DNA of 64,000 bases from Marinobacter subterrani (lineage in GTDB: Bacteria > Pseudomonadota > Gammaproteobacteria > Pseudomonadales > Oleiphilaceae), in the NCBI RefSeq assembly GCF_001045555.1, contig NZ_LFBU01000001.1, positions 620,001-684,000 on the forward strand, written 5' to 3'. Shown in pieces: positions 29,523-38,802 of the stretch. Position numbers and translations under genes: made by a program. Within the stretch, counting starts at the first letter, position 1, and each line of letters starts with the position of its first letter. The notes beneath the pieces were generated by a model. The model was not told the origin of the DNA. It ran no database searches and worked only from the letters and a program-made list of their open reading frames with translations.

Positions 29523-31043
29523 ATGGCCCATGAAGAACTGCACCTTAACCTCCGGAATCTGACGCTCGAGGATTACGAGCAGCTCCAGAAACTGATGGAC
29601 CGGGTCTACGATGACATCGGCGGCGCCTGGCCCAGGGATACCATCAAGGCCCTGGTAGAGCAGTTCCCGGACGGACAGATCTGTATCGAGGAAAGCGGGG
29701 AGCTGGTCGCCGTGGCACTGACCGTGCTTGTAAAGTACGAACGGTTCAGTAACCCCCACACCTACGATGACCTGATCCTCCGCAATGAAAAGATCTGGCA
29801 TAACGCCACCGGGGACTCGTTGTACGGGCTTGATGTGTTCATTCACCCCGATTACCGTGGCTATCGCCTGGGTCGGAGGCTTTACGAGGCCCGCAAAGAG
29901 CTTTGCCGCTCCATGAACCTGCGGGCGATTCTTGCCGGTGGCCGTATCCCGAATTATTTCAAATACGCCGAACAGTATTCGCCGGAGGAATACATCCAGC
30001 GGGTGGATCGCAAGGAAATCTACGACCCTATCCTGAGCTTCCAGTTGTCCAACGATTTCCAGGTTACCCGGCTGATGCACAAGTATCTGCCGGAAGATGA
30101 GAAGTCACTGGGCTACGCCACGTTGCTGGAGTGGCGGAATATTCTTTACACCCCGCCGTCATCCATTCTGAATTTCAAGAAGACGCAGGTGCGCCTCGGT
30201 GCCGTTCAGTGGCAGATGCGGGAATTCACCTCCGTGGAGGAAGTGCTGAAGCAGGTTGAGTACTTCGTTGATGCGCTCTCTGACTACAAGAGCGATTTCG
30301 CCCTGTTTCCGGAGTTTTTCAATGCCCCGCTGATGGGCCTGACGGACCAGATGGACCAGACCCGGGCTATCCGTTTCCTGGCCGGATTTACTCAGCAGTT
30401 CCGGGAAGAAATGTCTGAAATGGCAGTCAGTTACAACATAAACATCATAACGGGCTCCATGCCGCTGCTGGAAAATGACCGGGTGTACAACGTCTCGTAC
30501 CTGTGCCACCGCGATGGCCGGGTAGACGAGCAGCGCAAGATCCACATCACTCCTCACGAGCGCCGTGACTGGGTCATTGAGGGTGGCAGCGAGTTCAAGG
30601 TGTTTGATACCGACGCCGGCCGGGTTGCCATCATGATCTGCTACGACATCGAGTTTCCCGAGCTTGGCCGCATGGCCGCCGCCCAGGACGTGGACATTAT
30701 TCTGGTGCCGTTCTGGACAGACACCAAGAACGGTTACCTTCGGGTGCGCCACTGTGCCCAGGCCCGGGCCATCGAAAACGAGTGTTATGTTGTCATCACC
30801 GGCAGCGTGGGCAACCTGCCGAAAGTCGAGAACCTGGACGTCCAGTACGCCCAGTCCTCGGTCTTCTCACCTTCGGACTTTGCCTTCCCTCACGATGCAG
30901 TGATGGCAGAGACTACGCCGAATACCGAGATGATCATGTTCTCCGACATGGATCTTGAAAAGCTGACCCTGGTGCGTAACGAGGGCTCCGTCACCAACCT
31001 GAAAGACCGCCGCGTTGATATGTACGAACTGAAAAACAAGTAG
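29523..31043 (+). CDS. GNAT acetyltransferase fused to nitrilase-superfamily carbon-nitrogen hydrolase
   Basis: A 506-residue two-domain protein. Residues about 8-160 are a GNAT fold (LDVFIHPDYRGYRLGRRLYE is the acetyl-CoA loop). Residues about 220-500 are a nitrilase-superfamily domain with the complete triad: Glu in FPEFFN (about 263), Lys in EQRKIHITP (about 339) and Cys in MICYDIEFPE (about 372). Such fusions are known in proteobacteria but their substrate is not established. Own promoter region of about 190 bp; followed by a hairpin. Confidence 0.9.
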   Translation: MAHEELHLNLRNLTLEDYEQLQKLMDRVYDDIGGAWPRDTIKALVEQFPDGQICIEESGELVAVALTVLVKYERFSNPHTYDDLILRNEKIWHNATGDSLYGLDVFIHPDYRGYRLGRRLYEARKELCRSMNLRAILAGGRIPNYFKYAEQYSPEEYIQRVDRKEIYDPILSFQLSNDFQVTRLMHKYLPEDEKSLGYATLLEWRNILYTPPSSILNFKKTQVRLGAVQWQMREFTSVEEVLKQVEYFVDALSDYKSDFALFPEFFNAPLMGLTDQMDQTRAIRFLAGFTQQFREEMSEMAVSYNINIITGSMPLLENDRVYNVSYLCHRDGRVDEQRKIHITPHERRDWVIEGGSEFKVFDTDAGRVAIMICYDIEFPELGRMAAAQDVDIILVPFWTDTKNGYLRVRHCAQARAIENECYVVITGSVGNLPKVENLDVQYAQSSVFSPSDFAFPHDAVMAETTPNTEMIMFSDMDLEKLTLVRNEGSVTNLKDRRVDMYELKNK

Positions 31044-31656: not shown

Positions 31657-32343
31657 ATGGCGAAGAAAGCCAAACAGAACGTTGATAAGATCGTAAAAAA
31701 GGTCAACAAGGAGTTTGAGAAAACATCCGCCCAGATCGAAGGCCTTGTGAACGACGCACTGAAGCAGTTCGACAGCCTGCAGAATCAGGTTCAGGAACCG
31801 GTGCGCAAGCTCCTTAAAGAAATAGACGAGCTGCGCGATCGCGAGATGAAGCGCTTCCATGAGGAATTTGAGCGCCGGCTGAACGAGTTCCATGAGCTGC
31901 AGAGCAGCATTCTTGAACGCCTCGGCGTCGCCTCGAAAGAAGCGGGCGACGAAGTGAAGAAGCTGACGGATGAAGTCAGCAAGGAAGCAAAAACCGCAGC
32001 CCGGGATGCCGCGCCCAAAAAGACCACGAAGGCGCCCTCCGGAACAAAAACGGCTGCCAGCAAGCCGTCCGCCAAAACGCCGGCAGCGAAAAAGCCGGCG
32101 GCCAGGAAAACGCCCGCCACCAGGAAAGCACCTGCAACCAAGGCAGCCAAGCCCGTGGACAGGAGCGACCTGACCCTGATCAAGGGCATTGGCCCGGCAA
32201 CCGCCAAGAAGATGAAGGAGGCGGGGATCACCTCCATCGACCAGATCGCCAACCCTTCGGCGGCCGACCAGGAAAAACTCAAGGCTTTCTCCAATATCAA
32301 GGGGTACAGCCAACTGGGCGCTGAAGCCAAGAAAGTGAACTGA
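31657..32343 (+). CDS. Coiled-coil / Lys-Ala-rich linker / helix-hairpin-helix protein
   Basis: A 228-residue protein in three parts: a charged amphipathic coiled coil (1-115) resembling a phasin or histone-like scaffold, a histone-H1-like Lys/Ala/Pro/Thr-rich linker (about 115-165), and a C-terminal helix-hairpin-helix domain (LTLIKGIGPATAKKMKEAGI, then GYSQLGAEAKK). The C-terminal unit matches the HhH of DNA-associated or ribosomal-type proteins. A strong AAGGAG site precedes the ATG. Its TGA overlaps the ATG of the SelD fusion by one base (TGATG), so the two are translationally coupled. Function unknown; nucleic-acid binding is likely. Confidence 0.75.
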   Translation: MAKKAKQNVDKIVKKVNKEFEKTSAQIEGLVNDALKQFDSLQNQVQEPVRKLLKEIDELRDREMKRFHEEFERRLNEFHELQSSILERLGVASKEAGDEVKKLTDEVSKEAKTAARDAAPKKTTKAPSGTKTAASKPSAKTPAAKKPAARKTPATRKAPATKAAKPVDRSDLTLIKGIGPATAKKMKEAGITSIDQIANPSAADQEKLKAFSNIKGYSQLGAEAKKVN

Positions 32344-34619
32344 TGCAAACGCCTGACCAGCCTGTTTTACGGGACATAGTCCTGATTGGCGGCGGGCACA
32401 GCCACGTCGGGGTACTGAAACGATTTGCCATGAATCCGGTCCCCGGCGTGCGCCTCACGCTCATCTGCCGTGACACCCACACCCCGTATTCCGGCATGTT
32501 GCCCGGCTATGTCGCCGGACATTACAGCTACGACGATGTCCATATCGATCTGAGCCGACTGGCCGAATACGCCGGGGCACGTTTCTACCGTGCCGAGGCA
32601 ACAGGCATCGACCGTGACCGGAAACGGGTGCTCTGTTCCGGCCGCCCCGATGTGCCCTACGACATTCTGTCGATCAATATTGGATCGTCACCGCGCGTCA
32701 ACGAAGTGCAAGGCGCGTCCGATCATGCGGTTCCCGTAAAGCCGATTACCGGTTTCAACAACCGCTGGCTGGCGCTCCTCTCCCGCATTGAAAACCACCA
32801 GGGGCCGCTTACTGTGGCCGTGGTGGGTGCCGGTGCTGGTGGCGTCGAGCTGACCCTGGCCATGCAGTTCCGTCTCAGGAACGAACTGACACAACGGGGC
32901 AAGGACCCCGGGCAACTGCAGTTTCACCTGTTCGATGCCGCAGACGACATTCTTCCTACCCATAACCCGAAGGTTCGCAAGGTATTCCTGAAGAAGCTCT
33001 CTGAGCGCGGCGTAAAACTCCATCTTGGCGCACCCGTCACGAGAGTTGAGCAAGGGCTTCTTGAAACCGGGGCCGGTGAGATTCTGCACACCGACGAAGT
33101 ACTATGGGTAACCCGGGCCAGTGGTCCGGAATGGCTGAAGGAAACCGGCCTGGCCCTCGATGATGGCCTGTTTCTGCGGGTACTTGACACCCTGCAGGTC
33201 GAGAACGACGACAGCATCTTCGCCGCCGGGGATATTGCCAACGTCATCGATCATCCCCGTGAAAAAGCGGGGGTTTTCGCGGTACGTCAGGGCCCGCCCC
33301 TGGCGGGCAATCTCAAGCGCCTGGCAACTGGCAAAGCGCCGCGAAGTTTCTACCCCCAGAAAAAGTGGCTGGCGCTGATCAGCACCGGCGACAAGTACGC
33401 GGTGGCGTCCCGTGGCGAAATACAGTTTGACGGTGCCTGGGTGTGGCACTGGAAGGACTGGATCGACCGCCGGTTCATGAAAAAATTCAACGACCTGCCA
33501 CCGATGCAGGAAACCTCGAAACTGCCGGACACCGCCGCCGCCCTGAATGCGGAGGAAGCATCCCAGGCCATTTCTGCGGTTGCCATGCGCTGTGGCGGAT
33601 GTGGCGCCAAGGTCGGCAGCACCGTACTTTCCCGGGCCCTGGGCGAACTCAGGCCCATCGAACGGGATGACATCCTCATCGGCCTGCATGCGCCGGACGA
33701 TGCAGCCGTGCTCCGGGTGCCGCCGGGCAAGGCCGTGGTGCACACCGTGGATTTTTTCCGCGCGTTTATTGACGACCCCTACGTGTTTGGCAAGGTCGCC
33801 GCCAATCACAGCCTTGGCGATATCTTTGCCATGGGCGCGGAAGCCCAGAGTGCCACGGCGGTTGCCACTGTGCCCTATGGCATTGAATCGAAGGTTGAAG
33901 ACGTTGTGTTTCAGATGATGTCTGGCGCTGTGGAAGTTCTGAATGAGGCGGGCTGCGCGCTGGTGGGTGGCCACACCGGGGAAGGCAGGGAGCTGGCACT
34001 GGGCTTTGCCGTCAACGGCCTGATCGACCCGGAACAGGTCATGAGCAAGGGAGGACTCAAAGCGGGTGACGTACTGATTCTCACCAAGCCGATTGGTACC
34101 GGAACACTGTTCGCGGCCCATGCAAAACTGGCCGCCAGGGGCCGCTGGATTGATTCCGCCCTGGCGTCGATGATCCAGTCCAACAAGGCTGCGGCGGAGT
34201 GCCTGAGGAAATTCGGCGCCAGAGCCTGCACGGATGTGACCGGTTTTGGACTGCTTGGCCACCTTGTGGAGATGACCAAGCCGTCCGGGGTGGATGCCGA
34301 GCTGAACCTGTCCGCCATTCCGGTATTGCCGGGCGCCGAGGAAACCGCCGCCGCAGGGATTCTGAGTTCGCTGCAGCCGGCGAATATCCGGTTGCGGCGG
34401 GGCATTCGCGATCAGGAGCAATGGGTGGATCACCCCCGCTATCCACTGATCTTCGATCCGCAGACAGCTGGTGGCTTGCTGGCCAGCCTAACGGCCGACA
34501 AGGCAGAGGCGTGCGTGCAGGCGCTCAAGGCGCTTGGCTATGTTCATACCTCGGTTATTGGCCGGGTGACAGCCCAGGGCGACACTGGCCCCATCGAGCC
34601 GATCTCGCTTCGGGATTAG
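32343..34619 (+). CDS. selD: FAD/NAD(P) oxidoreductase fused to selenide, water dikinase (SelD)
   Basis: A 758-residue fusion. The N-terminal half (about 10-390) is an NDH-2-like pyridine nucleotide-disulfide oxidoreductase with the FAD motif IGGGHSH (15-21), a second Rossmann motif VVGAGAGGVEL and IFAAGDIAN. The C-terminal half is SelD, with the catalytic Cys and Lys in CGGCGAK (C420, K423), then DDAAVLRVPPG and the ATP-grasp-like end VGGHTGEGRELALG and DVTGFGLLGHL. SelD makes selenophosphate from selenide and ATP. The fused oxidoreductase probably supplies or reduces selenium species. Such fusions are recorded as a distinct family; the catalytic Cys is cysteine, not selenocysteine. Confidence 0.93.
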   Translation: MQTPDQPVLRDIVLIGGGHSHVGVLKRFAMNPVPGVRLTLICRDTHTPYSGMLPGYVAGHYSYDDVHIDLSRLAEYAGARFYRAEATGIDRDRKRVLCSGRPDVPYDILSINIGSSPRVNEVQGASDHAVPVKPITGFNNRWLALLSRIENHQGPLTVAVVGAGAGGVELTLAMQFRLRNELTQRGKDPGQLQFHLFDAADDILPTHNPKVRKVFLKKLSERGVKLHLGAPVTRVEQGLLETGAGEILHTDEVLWVTRASGPEWLKETGLALDDGLFLRVLDTLQVENDDSIFAAGDIANVIDHPREKAGVFAVRQGPPLAGNLKRLATGKAPRSFYPQKKWLALISTGDKYAVASRGEIQFDGAWVWHWKDWIDRRFMKKFNDLPPMQETSKLPDTAAALNAEEASQAISAVAMRCGGCGAKVGSTVLSRALGELRPIERDDILIGLHAPDDAAVLRVPPGKAVVHTVDFFRAFIDDPYVFGKVAANHSLGDIFAMGAEAQSATAVATVPYGIESKVEDVVFQMMSGAVEVLNEAGCALVGGHTGEGRELALGFAVNGLIDPEQVMSKGGLKAGDVLILTKPIGTGTLFAAHAKLAARGRWIDSALASMIQSNKAAAECLRKFGARACTDVTGFGLLGHLVEMTKPSGVDAELNLSAIPVLPGAEETAAAGILSSLQPANIRLRRGIRDQEQWVDHPRYPLIFDPQTAGGLLASLTADKAEACVQALKALGYVHTSVIGRVTAQGDTGPIEPISLRD

Positions 34620-35602
34620 ACCCCCATTGCGCAACGCTGCCGGGCAAGCTCCAGCGCCTGCTCAAGGGAGGCCCGCTCTTTTTCCGGTTCAAAACGCCCG
34701 GCCAATTGGCTTACCTCGGCCTTCAACCTTGCCAGAAAGTCAGCGCTCTGTTCTGCCCGATAAAGCAGGTCGGCCAGAGCGCGCTCATCCCGCACCGGGA
34801 AATAGCCGGGATAACCAGCGCCAAGCAAACCGATATTCCCGGGGATGTCTGAGGCAATGACCGGCAGGCCCGCCCTGCAGGCTTCAGACACGACATTGGC
34901 TCCACCCTCCATTATCGAACTGATGACCATCAGTTGGCTCTGGGCCATCAGGTGCCGGGTTTCATGCTTATCGAGTTCGCCCAGCCACCGGAAACGGGGA
35001 TTCTGCTGCATTTCCTGCTCAGCCATCCTCTGCCATGTTCCGTTGTGGGGTTTGCCGGCGCACAGAATCTGTATCCGGGAGTCATCTGGCAGCAGTCGCG
35101 CCGCATACGCCGCTCGTAACGAATCTTTCTCTTCCCGGAGATGGCCGATCACACATACCTGGAAACCTGTGGGCGCACGGGCAGGATCCGGTAAGGAACC
35201 GGCCTCAGGTTGGTCAGCGGATTGGAAGAGCGTAACCAGCTTTGCGGCAAACCGCCCGGGTATATCCCTGGCAACCTGCTCATGCAGCCCGATCAGTACG
35301 TCCGCCTCGGCCATGGAATACAGCGTCTCATCCGGAAACTCATGCTGGTGGCGGTAGATGTCCGTGCCGGTAAGCGCAACAATCAGAGGCTTGCCCGGCC
35401 AGCACTGACGGAACCGGCGAACCGCCCCAACGCTGCGCCAGGCGTGGAGCGCAATAAAGGCATCACAAGGTGCACCGTGGTATTCGGTAACCACAGAGAC
35501 AGTATGGCCGGCACTTTCCAGCAACAGGGCCCAACGCTCTGCCGTTGCCCGGTTACCCGCTTTGGAGCCCGCTGCCGCAGGCGTGATCATTATTATTTCC
35601 AT
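34616..35602 (-). CDS. senB: SenB-type selenosugar synthase (GT family, TIGR04348-like)
   Basis: A 328-residue GT-B glycosyltransferase. Its N-terminus (ITPAAAGSKAGNRATAERWA), ALTGTDIYRHQHEF, and the C-terminal MEGGANVVSEACRAGLPVIA match the family now described as SenB, which couples selenophosphate to a UDP-sugar (UDP-GlcNAc) to make a 1-seleno-sugar. Its stop overlaps the convergent selD stop by 4 bp, supporting a selenium role. The partner SenA (selenoneine synthase) is not in this window. The family call is mine by recall of motif patterns and context; a generic glycosyltransferase remains possible. Confidence 0.75.
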   Translation of the reverse strand: MEIIMITPAAAGSKAGNRATAERWALLLESAGHTVSVVTEYHGAPCDAFIALHAWRSVGAVRRFRQCWPGKPLIVALTGTDIYRHQHEFPDETLYSMAEADVLIGLHEQVARDIPGRFAAKLVTLFQSADQPEAGSLPDPARAPTGFQVCVIGHLREEKDSLRAAYAARLLPDDSRIQILCAGKPHNGTWQRMAEQEMQQNPRFRWLGELDKHETRHLMAQSQLMVISSIMEGGANVVSEACRAGLPVIASDIPGNIGLLGAGYPGYFPVRDERALADLLYRAEQSADFLARLKAEVSQLAGRFEPEKERASLEQALELARQRCAMGV

Positions 35603-35737
35603 GGCAATCGTTCAAGCCTGCTTAGCTGAGCAACAAGGCCATTGGCCGTGAGCTAATCGGTCGCGCGAATCGTATAGCTGTTCAGAGTTAACGTAAATCA
35701 AGGTATCCTGAGAGCCTCCGGGAAACGTCTGTTCTCC

Positions 35738-35757
35738 CAGTCTCGGTCAGTCTCGGT
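35738..35757. repeat. Tandem 10-bp repeat upstream of the binding-protein gene
   Basis: CAGTCTCGGT is repeated twice without gap, 37 bp before the start of the putative selenium-anion binding protein gene. It lies in the 190-bp region between the divergent senB and binding-protein genes. Could be a regulator site or chance. Confidence 0.35.
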
Positions 35758-35794
35758 ATCAAATCCAAACACTCCGGTAAAACAAGGAACTCCA

Positions 35795-36670
35795 ATGGCT
35801 CTTAATCTTATACGGAAATTGATGATTTCCAGTCTTTTCTGTTTCGCCGCCGGCTCGGCTTCTGCAGAAACCTTTGTGTTTACTGCCATACCCGATCAGG
35901 ATGAAACCAAGCTGGTGGAGCGCTTCCAGGGTGTCGCCGATTACCTTTCCAACGAGCTGGGTGTTGACGTGCGGTATGTTCCGGTCAAATCCTATGCCGC
36001 CGCTGTTTCTGCGTTCCGCAACAATCAGGTTCAGTTGGCGTGGTTTGGCGGTCTTTCCGGCGTCCAGGCACGGCGCCTGGTGCCAGGCTCGGAAGCCATC
36101 GCCCAGGGTGTGGAAGACGAAGCGTTCCGGACCTATTTTATCGCCAACACCAGCACCGGCGTTGAGCCTGCGGAGCAACTTTCTGCGCTCGAAGACGAGC
36201 TGCGCGGCAAGACCTTCACCTTCGGCTCCAAGGGTTCGACCTCTGGTCGACTGATGCCGGAGTTCTACATTCGCGAGGCCTTTGAAGCAGCACCCGAAGA
36301 GTTTTTCTCCCGTGTGGGCTTCAGCGGAAACCACACCCGTACCCTGCGACTTGTTGAAGCCGGCACCTATCAGGTGGGCGCATTGAACTTTCAGGTCTGG
36401 GAGACTGAACTGGCCAACGGCAACGTGGATACAGACGCCGTTCAGGTGATCTGGAAAACGCCTACCTACCCTGACTACCAGTGGACCATTCGCGGCGACG
36501 TCAACGAGCGTTTCGGTGATGGCTTCAAGCAGCGGGTTACCGAGGCTCTGGTGAACATGGACGATCCTGAGCTGCTGAAAAGCTTCCCACGCTCCGGTTT
36601 CATCCCGGCGTCGAACGATGACTACGAGCCTATTCGCCAGACAGCAGAAGAGATCGGAATCCTCGATTGA
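35795..36670 (+). CDS. PhnD-like periplasmic binding protein, putative selenate/selenite ABC transporter
   Basis: A 291-residue protein with a signal peptide (cleavage near ASA, about 24) and the PhnD-type fold: AIPDQDETKLVERF, then DYLSNELGVDVRYVPVKSYAAAV, FGSKGSTSGRLMPEFY and a C-terminal FIPASNDDYEP. The wider family binds phosphate, phosphite and phosphonates. A clade linked to selD loci is annotated in databases as putative selenate binding, and the selD/senB neighbours here fit it. The ATG has AAGGA. Which anion it binds is inferred, not seen. Confidence 0.75.
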   Translation: MALNLIRKLMISSLFCFAAGSASAETFVFTAIPDQDETKLVERFQGVADYLSNELGVDVRYVPVKSYAAAVSAFRNNQVQLAWFGGLSGVQARRLVPGSEAIAQGVEDEAFRTYFIANTSTGVEPAEQLSALEDELRGKTFTFGSKGSTSGRLMPEFYIREAFEAAPEEFFSRVGFSGNHTRTLRLVEAGTYQVGALNFQVWETELANGNVDTDAVQVIWKTPTYPDYQWTIRGDVNERFGDGFKQRVTEALVNMDDPELLKSFPRSGFIPASNDDYEPIRQTAEEIGILD

Positions 36671-37320
36671 TGTCAGGCTTCGACCTAACGGGCCTGACGG
36701 CCTCTTTTGGTGGAGAGCGGGTTATCGGCCCGCTCTCCCTGAGGGTTAAGCAGGGCGAAAAGGTCGCCCTTGTGGGCAAGAGCGGTGCTGGCAAATCCAC
36801 CCTCATACGCCTGATTCACGAGCGCGTTAATCGCGAGTCCTCCCTGGTGCCTCAGGATCTGGGCCTGGTCAATGCCCTGCCGGTGTTCCATAACGTGTTT
36901 ATGGGACAGCTTGACAGGCATTCCACCTGGTACAGCACCGTTACGCTAATGCGACCGTTCGCCCGCGACCGTGCCGAGGTACGGGAATTACTGGTGGAGT
37001 TGGGCATGTCAGAGAAACTCTGGATGCCAACGGCGTCGCTTTCCGGCGGCCAGCGCCAGCGGGTTGCCATTGCCCGGGCACTGTATCGCAAGGCGCCCCT
37101 GCTGCTTGCAGACGAGCCGATCTCTGCCCTGGATGGCCCCACAGCCCAGGTGGTCATGGCGCTACTTAAAGAGCGATTTACCACCAGCGTGATCGCACTG
37201 CATGATGTCGAAATGGCCCTGAAATTCTGCAACCGGATTGTCGGAATCCAGGACGGACAGGTTGCCCTGGACGAGACCAGTGACCGCCTGCAGGCATCAG
37301 ACATCATGTCGCTCTATTAG
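36670..37320 (+). CDS. ABC transporter ATP-binding subunit (PhnC-like)
   Basis: A 216-residue ABC ATPase with Walker A GKSGAGKST (36-44), the Q-loop region SSLVPQDLGL, signature LSGGQRQR, Walker B LLLADEPISALD and the switch His in ALHDVEM. The ATG overlaps the binding-protein stop by one base (TGATG), so expression is coupled. Somewhat short for PhnC. Cytoplasmic motor of the 35.8-38.8 kb importer. Confidence 0.88.
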   Translation: MSGFDLTGLTASFGGERVIGPLSLRVKQGEKVALVGKSGAGKSTLIRLIHERVNRESSLVPQDLGLVNALPVFHNVFMGQLDRHSTWYSTVTLMRPFARDRAEVRELLVELGMSEKLWMPTASLSGGQRQRVAIARALYRKAPLLLADEPISALDGPTAQVVMALLKERFTTSVIALHDVEMALKFCNRIVGIQDGQVALDETSDRLQASDIMSLY

Positions 37321-37335
37321 GGAACCGGCCAGTTC

Positions 37336-38802
37336 ATGCTTTTTTCCCCGACGGTTCGCACCAGCCTGATTTTTATCGCCGTAGCGCTGATTTCGCTGCT
37401 GTTTGCCGATATTGCGATAACAACCTCAAACCCCTGGCAGGACCTTGGCAACTTTTTCCTGGGCGTCATCACGCCGGATTTCTTTACCAACGCAGGATTG
37501 ACCACGGCTCTTCTGAGAACCCTCGCCTTTGCCTTTGTGGGGGTCGCGCTCGGCAGTGTGTGCGGATTCCTGCTCTCGCTGGTTTACCGATTCCTGCCGG
37601 TGCGGATTTTCTGTGCCTTTATCCGGGCCATTCATGAGCTTTTCTGGGCGCTGATTTTCCTTCAGTTCTTTGGCTTCCACCCGCTGACAGGCGTTCTGGC
37701 GATTGCCATACCCTATTCCGGAATTTTCGCCAAGGTCTATTCCGAGATCCTGGATGAGGTGGACCCGGAACCGGGTCGCCTTCTGCCACCGGGCACGGGC
37801 ACCATCGCCAGGTTTCTCTACAGCCGGATTCCCGATTGCTGGGCTCAGCTGCGCACATATACCGCCTATCGCCTGGAATGCGGCCTTCGTTCCAGCGCCA
37901 TACTTGGATTTGTCGGCCTGCCCACGCTTGGCTTTTACCTCGAATCGTCGTTTTCCCAGGGGCTCTATTCCGAGGCCGGGGCGATGCTGATTCTCTTCTA
38001 TCTGCTCATCGCGACCATGCCACTCTGGGTCAGGCCAAAGCTGCTGCCGCTGTACGTTCTTGGTGCACCTTTCTTCCTGGGTGAAGGACTCCCTATCGTC
38101 TGGGGTAACGTCGCACGTTTCTTCACCAAGGATATCGTGCCCGATCCGCTGCGGGACGGCGAAGGGCTGGCGGGATTGCTGCCCTGGCTGAGCGACCTGA
38201 TGATCAACGAGGCCCTGCCGGGCATCTGGAATACGGTGATACTGACCCAGATTGCCCTTGTCGCAACCGGGATTCTGACACTTCTGGCGTTCCCGCTGAT
38301 CTCGACTCATTTTGGCGGGCCGGTGCGGCGCACCTCAGGCCATGTGCTTCTGGTGATTGCACGTTCAACACCGGAATACGTCCTGGCCTACATTCTCCTG
38401 CAGCTCTGGGGGCCGTCCATGCTGCCGGCGGTGGTCGCTCTGGCGCTCCACAACGGCGGGATTATCGGCCACCTGATTGGCCGTCAGACCAACACCATCC
38501 GCCTTCGGCCGGACGCGCCGACCGGCGTTAACCGCTACACCTGGGAGCTGGTTCCAAGGGTTTACCGCTCGTTCCTCGCGTTTCTTTTCTACCGGTGGGA
38601 AATCATCATGCGGGAGACGGCCATTCTCGGCATCCTGGGCATCTACACGCTGGGTTTCTACGTCGACAGCGCCATACAGAACATTCGTTTTGATCGTGCC
38701 ATGATCCTGATCCTCATCACGGCTCTGTTGAACATAGGCATTGATGCCCTTGGCCGCTACATTCGCCGTAAACTCGCGTTGCAGACCATGCCAACCTGCT
38801 GA
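37336..38802 (+). CDS. ABC transporter permease, two fused PhnE-like halves
   Basis: A 488-residue multi-TM permease. Two related transmembrane cores are seen: the first near residues 45-220 and the second near 300-480. Both carry EAA-like cytoplasmic loops and end in similar phrases (LGFVGLPTLGFYLESS in the first half, ILGIYTLGFYVDSA in the second). A single PhnE is about 270 residues, so this is a tandem duplication that would give a monomeric permease for the importer. It starts 15 bp after the ATPase gene. Confidence 0.85.
   Translation: MLFSPTVRTSLIFIAVALISLLFADIAITTSNPWQDLGNFFLGVITPDFFTNAGLTTALLRTLAFAFVGVALGSVCGFLLSLVYRFLPVRIFCAFIRAIHELFWALIFLQFFGFHPLTGVLAIAIPYSGIFAKVYSEILDEVDPEPGRLLPPGTGTIARFLYSRIPDCWAQLRTYTAYRLECGLRSSAILGFVGLPTLGFYLESSFSQGLYSEAGAMLILFYLLIATMPLWVRPKLLPLYVLGAPFFLGEGLPIVWGNVARFFTKDIVPDPLRDGEGLAGLLPWLSDLMINEALPGIWNTVILTQIALVATGILTLLAFPLISTHFGGPVRRTSGHVLLVIARSTPEYVLAYILLQLWGPSMLPAVVALALHNGGIIGHLIGRQTNTIRLRPDAPTGVNRYTWELVPRVYRSFLAFLFYRWEIIMRETAILGILGIYTLGFYVDSAIQNIRFDRAMILILITALLNIGIDALGRYIRRKLALQTMPTC

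Follow-up and report, generated by a model that had tools for sequence, protein, structure and literature searches.

The window examined here, a stretch of 64,000 nucleotides from Marinobacter subterrani, covers positions 620001 to 684000 of contig 1 of a two-contig, 4.45-Mb genome assembly (G000) that is rated 100% complete. We scanned the nine proteins encoded between window positions 29523 and 39527 with hidden Markov models (HMMs) and inspected the remaining open reading frames (ORFs) of the window by eye. The ORFs and the HMM matches define a selenium locus composed of a gene for an oxidoreductase-SelD fusion, a SenB gene, and the three genes of an ABC importer (Table 1). The senB gene is convergent with the fusion gene, with an overlap of 4 nt, and the binding-protein gene is divergent from senB and is overlapped by the ATPase ORF, again by 4 nt. 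An initial annotation of this DNA had described the same arrangement (SelD with an N-terminal oxidoreductase, tail to tail with a SenB-type glycosyltransferase, and a binding protein, an ATPase, and a permease diverging from the latter), and the ORFs together with the HMM scores bear it out. However, that annotation let the locus begin at 31657, which is the start of a separate phasin-like gene; the selenium genes run from 32343 to 38802. As it had also stated, no SenA, SelA, or SelB was found among the nine scanned proteins, and no genes for phosphite or C-P catabolism were found among them.

Table 1. Genes of the selenium locus and the adjoining upstream gene (window coordinates)
Feature	Position	Strand	HMM match
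Phasin-like coiled protein ending in a helix-hairpin-helix domain	31657..32343	+	HHH_5, 33.7 bits
Fusion of an Ndh-type FAD/NAD(P) oxidoreductase with SelD (selenide, water dikinase)	32343..34619	+	TIGR03169, TIGR00476
SenB, predicted selenosugar synthase (Se-glycosyltransferase)	34616..35602	-	TIGR04348
Periplasmic binding protein of the TIGR04553/PhnD1 family, predicted selenite (selenium oxyanion) binder	35795..36670	+	TIGR04553
Importer ABC ATPase, PhnC-like	36667..37320	+	TIGR02315
ABC permease with two fused PhnE-like domains	37336..38802	+	TIGR01097

The phasin-like gene overlaps the start of the selD fusion gene by 1 nt; it has a match in all five other SenB loci of the same genus (partial in L085) and none in the four SenA-type SenB loci of the order. 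Farther upstream, at 29523 to 31043, lies a GNAT-nitrilase fusion gene with no known selenium link, which is 92 to 93% identical in the same-genus loci L085, L086, L087, and L091.

The fusion protein scores 503.5 bits against TIGR03169 (cutoff, 310) and 301 bits against TIGR00476 (cutoff, 125), and it stays below the cutoff of the “fusion_not_SelD” model TIGR04369 (477 bits; cutoff, 700). Its SelD part has the catalytic Cys/Lys motif in the form of CGGCGAK, from residue 417. With an Ndh domain joined to a Cys-type SelD with CxxC, the protein resembles the Ndh-SelD fusions described from aquatic bacteria, with no notable differences; according to that description, CxxC is present in all such fusions detected, and they are common in marine samples (PMC2398784). 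A role of an NADH dehydrogenase in producing the SelD substrate has been suggested (PMC2432076).

The glycosyltransferase scores 406.5 bits against TIGR04348 (cutoff, 300), and its solved relatives at an E value of ≤0.001 are four SenB sequences (147 to 148 bits). It is 79% identical to the SenB of Marinobacter guineae and 37% identical, over 308 positions, to that of Variovorax paradoxus (PDB 8JJN and 8FBX), with which it shares all nine residues reported as important (N20, T23, H58, R61, T83, T85, R155, the catalytic K158, and E231) (PMC10891094). It differs from the V. paradoxus enzyme in having EGGANV in place of EGGAHV and in the lack of an adjoining SenA gene. A tree was built from the window SenB, 15 other SenB sequences, and, as an outgroup, five other GT4 glycosyltransferases, of which three have long branches that were flagged; a sixth intended outgroup sequence (L031) was left out for want of a usable frame. 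The 16 SenB sequences form one clade (97/96) without the five other GT4 sequences, and the 10 SenA-type SenBs, that of V. paradoxus included, cluster inside it (86/99; midpoint root). The SenB-type assignment of the initial annotation therefore stands: family membership and conserved residues mark the glycosyltransferase as a true SenB, and its predicted activity is the formation of a selenosugar from selenophosphate. A single-sequence SenB scan of genome contigs matched 39 stretches, none of which was confirmed.

SenB is present above the cutoff in 10 of 194 genomes of the order, and in all 10 (the window and nine further loci) the genes for the SelD fusion, for SenB, and for the three importer components lie together, a clustering that exceeds chance. 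At one of these loci (L088), the contig ends within the SelD fusion gene, and the gene for the binding protein is split in two.

The binding protein of the importer scores 426.8 bits against TIGR04553 (cutoff, 250), the curated name of which is putative selenate-binding protein, and 164.6 bits against TIGR01098, a broad phosphate/phosphite/phosphonate subfamily (cutoff, 112.05), whereas the general phosphonate PhnD model yields 150.4 bits, below its cutoff of 261.1. The ATPase (165.5 bits against the PhnC model TIGR02315; cutoff, 266.1) and the permease, which has two PhnE-like stretches (205.1 bits against TIGR01097; cutoff, 216.7), stay under the cutoffs, the latter just so. At 217 aa, counted from a TTG start codon, the ATPase is unusually short, with the Walker A, Q-loop, signature, Walker B, and H-loop motifs all present; the spacing from Walker A to the Q loop is 24 residues. 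The nearest solved relatives of the binding protein are the PhnD1 proteins of picocyanobacteria (7S6G, 245 bits; 5LQ5, 202 bits); PtxB follows far behind, with 105 bits. One solved relative has 46% identity. Since both PhnD1 sequences themselves pass TIGR04553 (333.6 and 294.5 bits, respectively; cutoff, 250), they and the window binding protein make up one family by that model. The window importer is thus like picocyanobacterial PhnD1-CE (PDB 5LQ5 and 7S6G) in its family and its ligand pocket; unlike PhnD1-CE, which is described as a phosphorus importer, it sits in a selenium locus.

In Pm_PhnD, phosphite is contacted by Y46, S126, T127, S128, H158, D205, and the cap residue Y206, with D13 and N176 in supporting positions, and D205 implies a protonated ligand; the second pKa of phosphite is given as 6.7 (PMC5700983). 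The window binding protein is identical to Pm_PhnD at all 10 pocket positions. In a set of 127 family proteins (the 80 best relatives from a scan with the family alignment, those of 38 loci of the phylum and of eight SenB loci, and that of the window), Y46, F90, S126, T127, S128, and H158 are invariant, while 125 proteins have D13, 126 have Y206, and 112 have N176; at position 205, D is found in 105 proteins and N in the other 22. Selenium-linked and unlinked members are alike at the invariant positions, and they probably share one ligand. Selenite, like phosphite, is a three-oxygen pyramid, and hydrogen selenite resembles monoanionic phosphite; because the second pKa of selenite is near 8.4, hydrogen selenite would be plentiful at seawater pH. 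From the phosphite-like shape of selenite and the nearly unchanged phosphite pocket, we infer a selenite importer. Two features of the pocket count against this: the lone pair of selenium would need to take over the P-H...pi contact with Y206, and the pocket residues are those that a phosphite binder needs. As for the initial annotation, which had proposed a selenium importer and pointed to selenate, the genome context supports selenium import, whereas “selenate” is no more than the putative name of the HMM and the pocket appears to favor selenite.

The genome context was followed in three samples. (i) In the phylum to which the window organism belongs, 42 of 397 genomes have the TIGR04553 family, four of them with SenB loci of the window type. 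Among the other 38 loci, SelD lies within about 8 kb in 13, five of which also have SenB; no selenium gene was detected within about 8 kb in the remaining 25, a finding that counts against a strict selenium role, and the recurring neighbors of these 25 show no common theme by eye. (ii) The family-alignment scan found at least 566 relatives, of which the best 80, mostly cyanobacterial, were retained; Picosynechococcus PCC 7117 is one of the carriers of the family. SelD or SelU is present in the fetched flank of eight of these 80 loci (six Synechococcaceae/Cyanobium-type, one Moorena, and one Thermoflexales metagenome-assembled genome [MAG]), many loci being shortened by contig ends. In 50 genomes tested from the best 80 of at least 566, SelD was found at an E value of ≤1e-30 in 45 (44 over the cutoff), mostly in frames of about 680 to 890 aa, long enough for a fusion. 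(iii) Among 339 cyanobacterial genomes (the phylum of G223, a Picosynechococcus counted among them), 61 have the TIGR04553 family and 80 have SelD at 1e-30, 79 of them over the cutoff. SelD is present in all 61 family-positive genomes, in one of which (G525) it scores 124.3 bits, just under the cutoff of 125, versus 19 of the 278 family-negative ones, and the family was found in none of the 259 SelD-negative genomes (Fisher P = 8e-51, uncorrected for relatedness). Fifteen of the 61 genomes exceed 3.5 Mb; the trait is therefore not limited to picocyanobacteria. The association is without exception in these 339 genomes, but SelD went undetected in 5 of the 50 genomes of the second sample (Synechococcus sp. 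GFB01, a Propionibacteriales MAG, Zarconia navalis, Prochlorococcus sp. AG-402-I21, and a Synechococcus TMED19 MAG). In an earlier survey, an ABC ATPase near orphan selD is listed as a candidate selenium gene and three Prochlorococcus strains are listed as orphan-SelD organisms (PMC5029168). In G776 (L286:7533-9344), two tandem TIGR04553 binding-protein genes lie beside SelD, and in the Thermoflexales MAG (G214), in which SelD adjoins the importer (L174), the SelD gene has one in-frame TGA (L190), as expected of a selenoprotein SelD.

We put it at even chances that the TIGR04553/PhnD1-CE system is a dedicated high-affinity selenite importer, in the window organism and in picocyanobacteria alike, the measured phosphite affinity being a by-product of shape. 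The opposing view, namely, that phosphite, phosphonate, or phosphate is what the importer transports and that it adjoins selenium genes for other reasons, seems to us unlikely, although it can draw on binding data. Pm_PhnD, which has the identical pocket, binds phosphite at a published value of about 0.05 to 0.12 µM, and for Synechococcus PhnD1, dissociation constants of 0.67 to 4.3 µM for phosphite and 7 to 88 µM for phosphate are given in PMC10284923. In that study, PhnD1 is stabilized in a thermal-shift screen only by cocktails with phosphorus sources, strain WH8102 of Synechococcus is noted to respond to P-deficient medium with induction of the transporter, and the title names the system as likely a constitutive transporter of phosphate. 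The 25 of 38 phylum loci that lack a nearby selenium gene fit this view as well; yet among the neighbors common to at least two of these 25, none is phosphonate-like by eye. It is further opposed by the linkage to SelD, SenB, or SelU (all 10 SenB loci in the order, 13 of the 38 phylum loci, and 8 of the mainly cyanobacterial best 80 of at least 566) and by the cyanobacterial SelD counts. Moreover, PMC10284923 and PMC5700983 describe phosphite catabolism as lacking in most picocyanobacteria and the gene of MIT9301 as neither P responsive nor located with genes for phosphite or phosphonate. On account of this lack in most strains, PMC10284923 calls the PhnD1 system paradoxical, and according to PMC5700983, what Prochlorococcus PhnDCE does in vivo is unknown.

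A selenite importer would explain why picocyanobacteria keep a “phosphite” importer without a phosphite metabolism, and it would supply selenium for the SelD fusion, SelU, and SenB in both the window organism and picocyanobacteria. Family membership in itself suggests that the PhnD1 importer carries selenium too. Therein lies a significance greater than that of the locus, as the importer bears on the trace-element supply of the most abundant photosynthetic cells; given the near-constant pocket and the SelD association, a simple test could be made on PhnD1 proteins that have already been purified. As the name of TIGR04553 shows, this family was already associated with selenium by the curators at NCBI. 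In the open-license literature, we found no paper that equates PhnD1 with TIGR04553 or names selenite as its ligand, and the string “selen” is absent from the main texts of PMC5700983, PMC10284923, PMC8786288, and PMC10119275.

The enzyme that would accept the selenosugar is encoded elsewhere in the genome. From the absence of SenA at the locus, the initial annotation had concluded that the selenosugar may feed another product or that SenA lies elsewhere. A genome-wide search for the FGE-sulfatase fold overturned the first conclusion: there is an acceptor enzyme at a distance, and it is OvsA and not SenA. Nor is the locus self-contained, a possibility that the annotation had raised, since the OvsA gene (C1:2869458-2870831) lies 2.2 Mb away, unlinked to senB. 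OvsA is reportedly an enzyme of the ovoselenol pathway (Kayrouz, 2024), and we take it to be the selenoxide synthase of that pathway. The protein is 64% identical to the solved OvsA (PDB 8U41), against which it scores 654 bits (versus 177 for EgtB and 172 for SenA), and it falls in one clade with 8U41 (100/100), set apart from nine SenA-type homologs of SenB loci and from ten homologs of SenB-less genomes. By orthology to this solved selenoxide synthase, the enzyme would form a C-Se bond on histidine. Unlike in the known OvsA system, ovsA is unlinked to senB here, and no methyltransferase gene lies beside it.

The distribution of these enzymes in the order agrees with such a pairing. An OvsA query (1e-30) matches the six same-genus SenB genomes, that of the window included, with 718 to 1,122 bits and 68 to 100% identity, whereas the other four SenB genomes yield 267 to 322 bits, from a SenA-type gene right beside SenB. 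The best match in the 184 SenB-negative genomes has 150.5 bits, and no match at 1e-30 comes from the one same-genus genome that lacks SenB or from the one other genome of the family. The counts for SenB versus OvsA or SenA-type genes are thus 10/0/0/184 (Fisher P = 6e-17, uncorrected for relatedness). We rejected EGGANV of SenB as a signature of an OvsA partner; the motif is not partner specific, because it is common to other order-level sequences of the tree, SenA-type ones included.

With good confidence, we therefore read the locus as the supply half of an ovoselenol-type pathway, that is, one leading to a selenohistidine antioxidant. Among the observations that count against this are the lack of linkage between OvsA and the locus and the NCBIfam SenA model, which also passes on OvsA, if barely (420.6 bits; cutoff, 420). 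The same model yields 471, 502, 509, and 512 bits for four SenA-type proteins (three of the four of the order were scanned, with 471 to 509 bits) and 373 bits for a stretch of L277, and it cannot separate OvsA. Conversion of the selenosugar into selenoneine by a SenA, or into some other product, is in our estimate improbable. This alternative could appeal to the distance between ovsA and senB and to the SenA-type loci of the order and the phylum, in which SenA directly adjoins SenB in eight of nine cases and is in the same cluster in the ninth (L277), while no such gene was found at the same-genus loci. It is opposed by the inventory of acceptor candidates: of the six FGE-sulfatase-domain genes in the genome, one clusters with OvsA 8U41, one is a full OvoA, and the other four are shorter (open frames of 300 to 356 aa) and have no match to the OvsA query at 1e-30, the sole match in the genome being OvsA itself. 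Three FGE-sulfatase-domain genes lie within 3 kb of one another at L014 (C1:1334000-1348000).

As to the genome searches that the initial annotation had suggested, SelU is present (353.7 bits; cutoff, 219.75), SelA is absent from the genome, and the SenA model just passes, on OvsA. The presence of SelU means that selenophosphate also has a use in tRNA. That the locus serves mainly tRNA selenouridine, through SelD and SelU, with SenB having drifted to another glycosyl acceptor, is a very remote prospect, for although several genomes have SelU in the neighborhood of SelD and the importer, SenB keeps all nine functional residues at 37% identity, and each of the 10 SenB genomes of the 194 also encodes OvsA or a SenA-type protein.

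On the ovoselenol reading, gene identities, conserved residues, co-occurrence, and linkage allow a route to be proposed. The ABC importer would take up a selenium oxyanion, most likely (hydrogen) selenite, which would be reduced to selenide, the fused Ndh domain being a candidate for part of the reduction. SelD would convert selenide to selenophosphate, from which SenB is predicted to move selenium onto a UDP-sugar to give a 1-selenosugar; the same selenophosphate would also feed SelU for tRNA selenouridine. OvsA presumably joins the selenium to histidine, and the final step to ovoselenol may fall to a methyltransferase resembling the C-terminal part of OvoA. The gene set thus probably imports selenium and makes a selenium-sugar for a selenium antioxidant. 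SenB, OvsA, and Ndh-SelD were already known, and the locus is a new example of a selenosugar pathway that was likewise known and that can now be paired with its acceptor enzyme.

For the last step, a methyltransferase above the cutoff of TIGR04345 accompanies OvsA in all six genomes that have it and is missing from the six OvsA-negative genomes tested. It adjoins OvsA in three of the six (G019, G060, and G093) and lies elsewhere in the window genome, G121, and G169. That of the window genome is a standalone protein of the OvoA C-terminal type, encoded on contig 2 (L082:7864-8619, plus strand) downstream of genes that look eutBC-like by eye. It is 71 to 73% identical to the enzymes of G121 and G169 and 61% identical to one inside a 741-aa OvoA-like frame of G060 but only 48 to 49% identical to the OvsA-adjacent enzymes; these identities weaken a simple OvsM assignment, so that the enzyme is an uncertain candidate for the methylation step. 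The full OvoA of the genome, which has a methyltransferase domain of its own, likewise counts against a simple assignment of this step. This OvoA (735 aa; L012:4275-6482, minus strand, corresponding to C1 at about 2,503,300 to 2,505,500) has both halves over the cutoff (660.6 and 292.4 bits), and through it the organism may also make ovothiol. Its gene lies about 1.2 kb from a pair of genes named by eye as IS21-like istA and istB.
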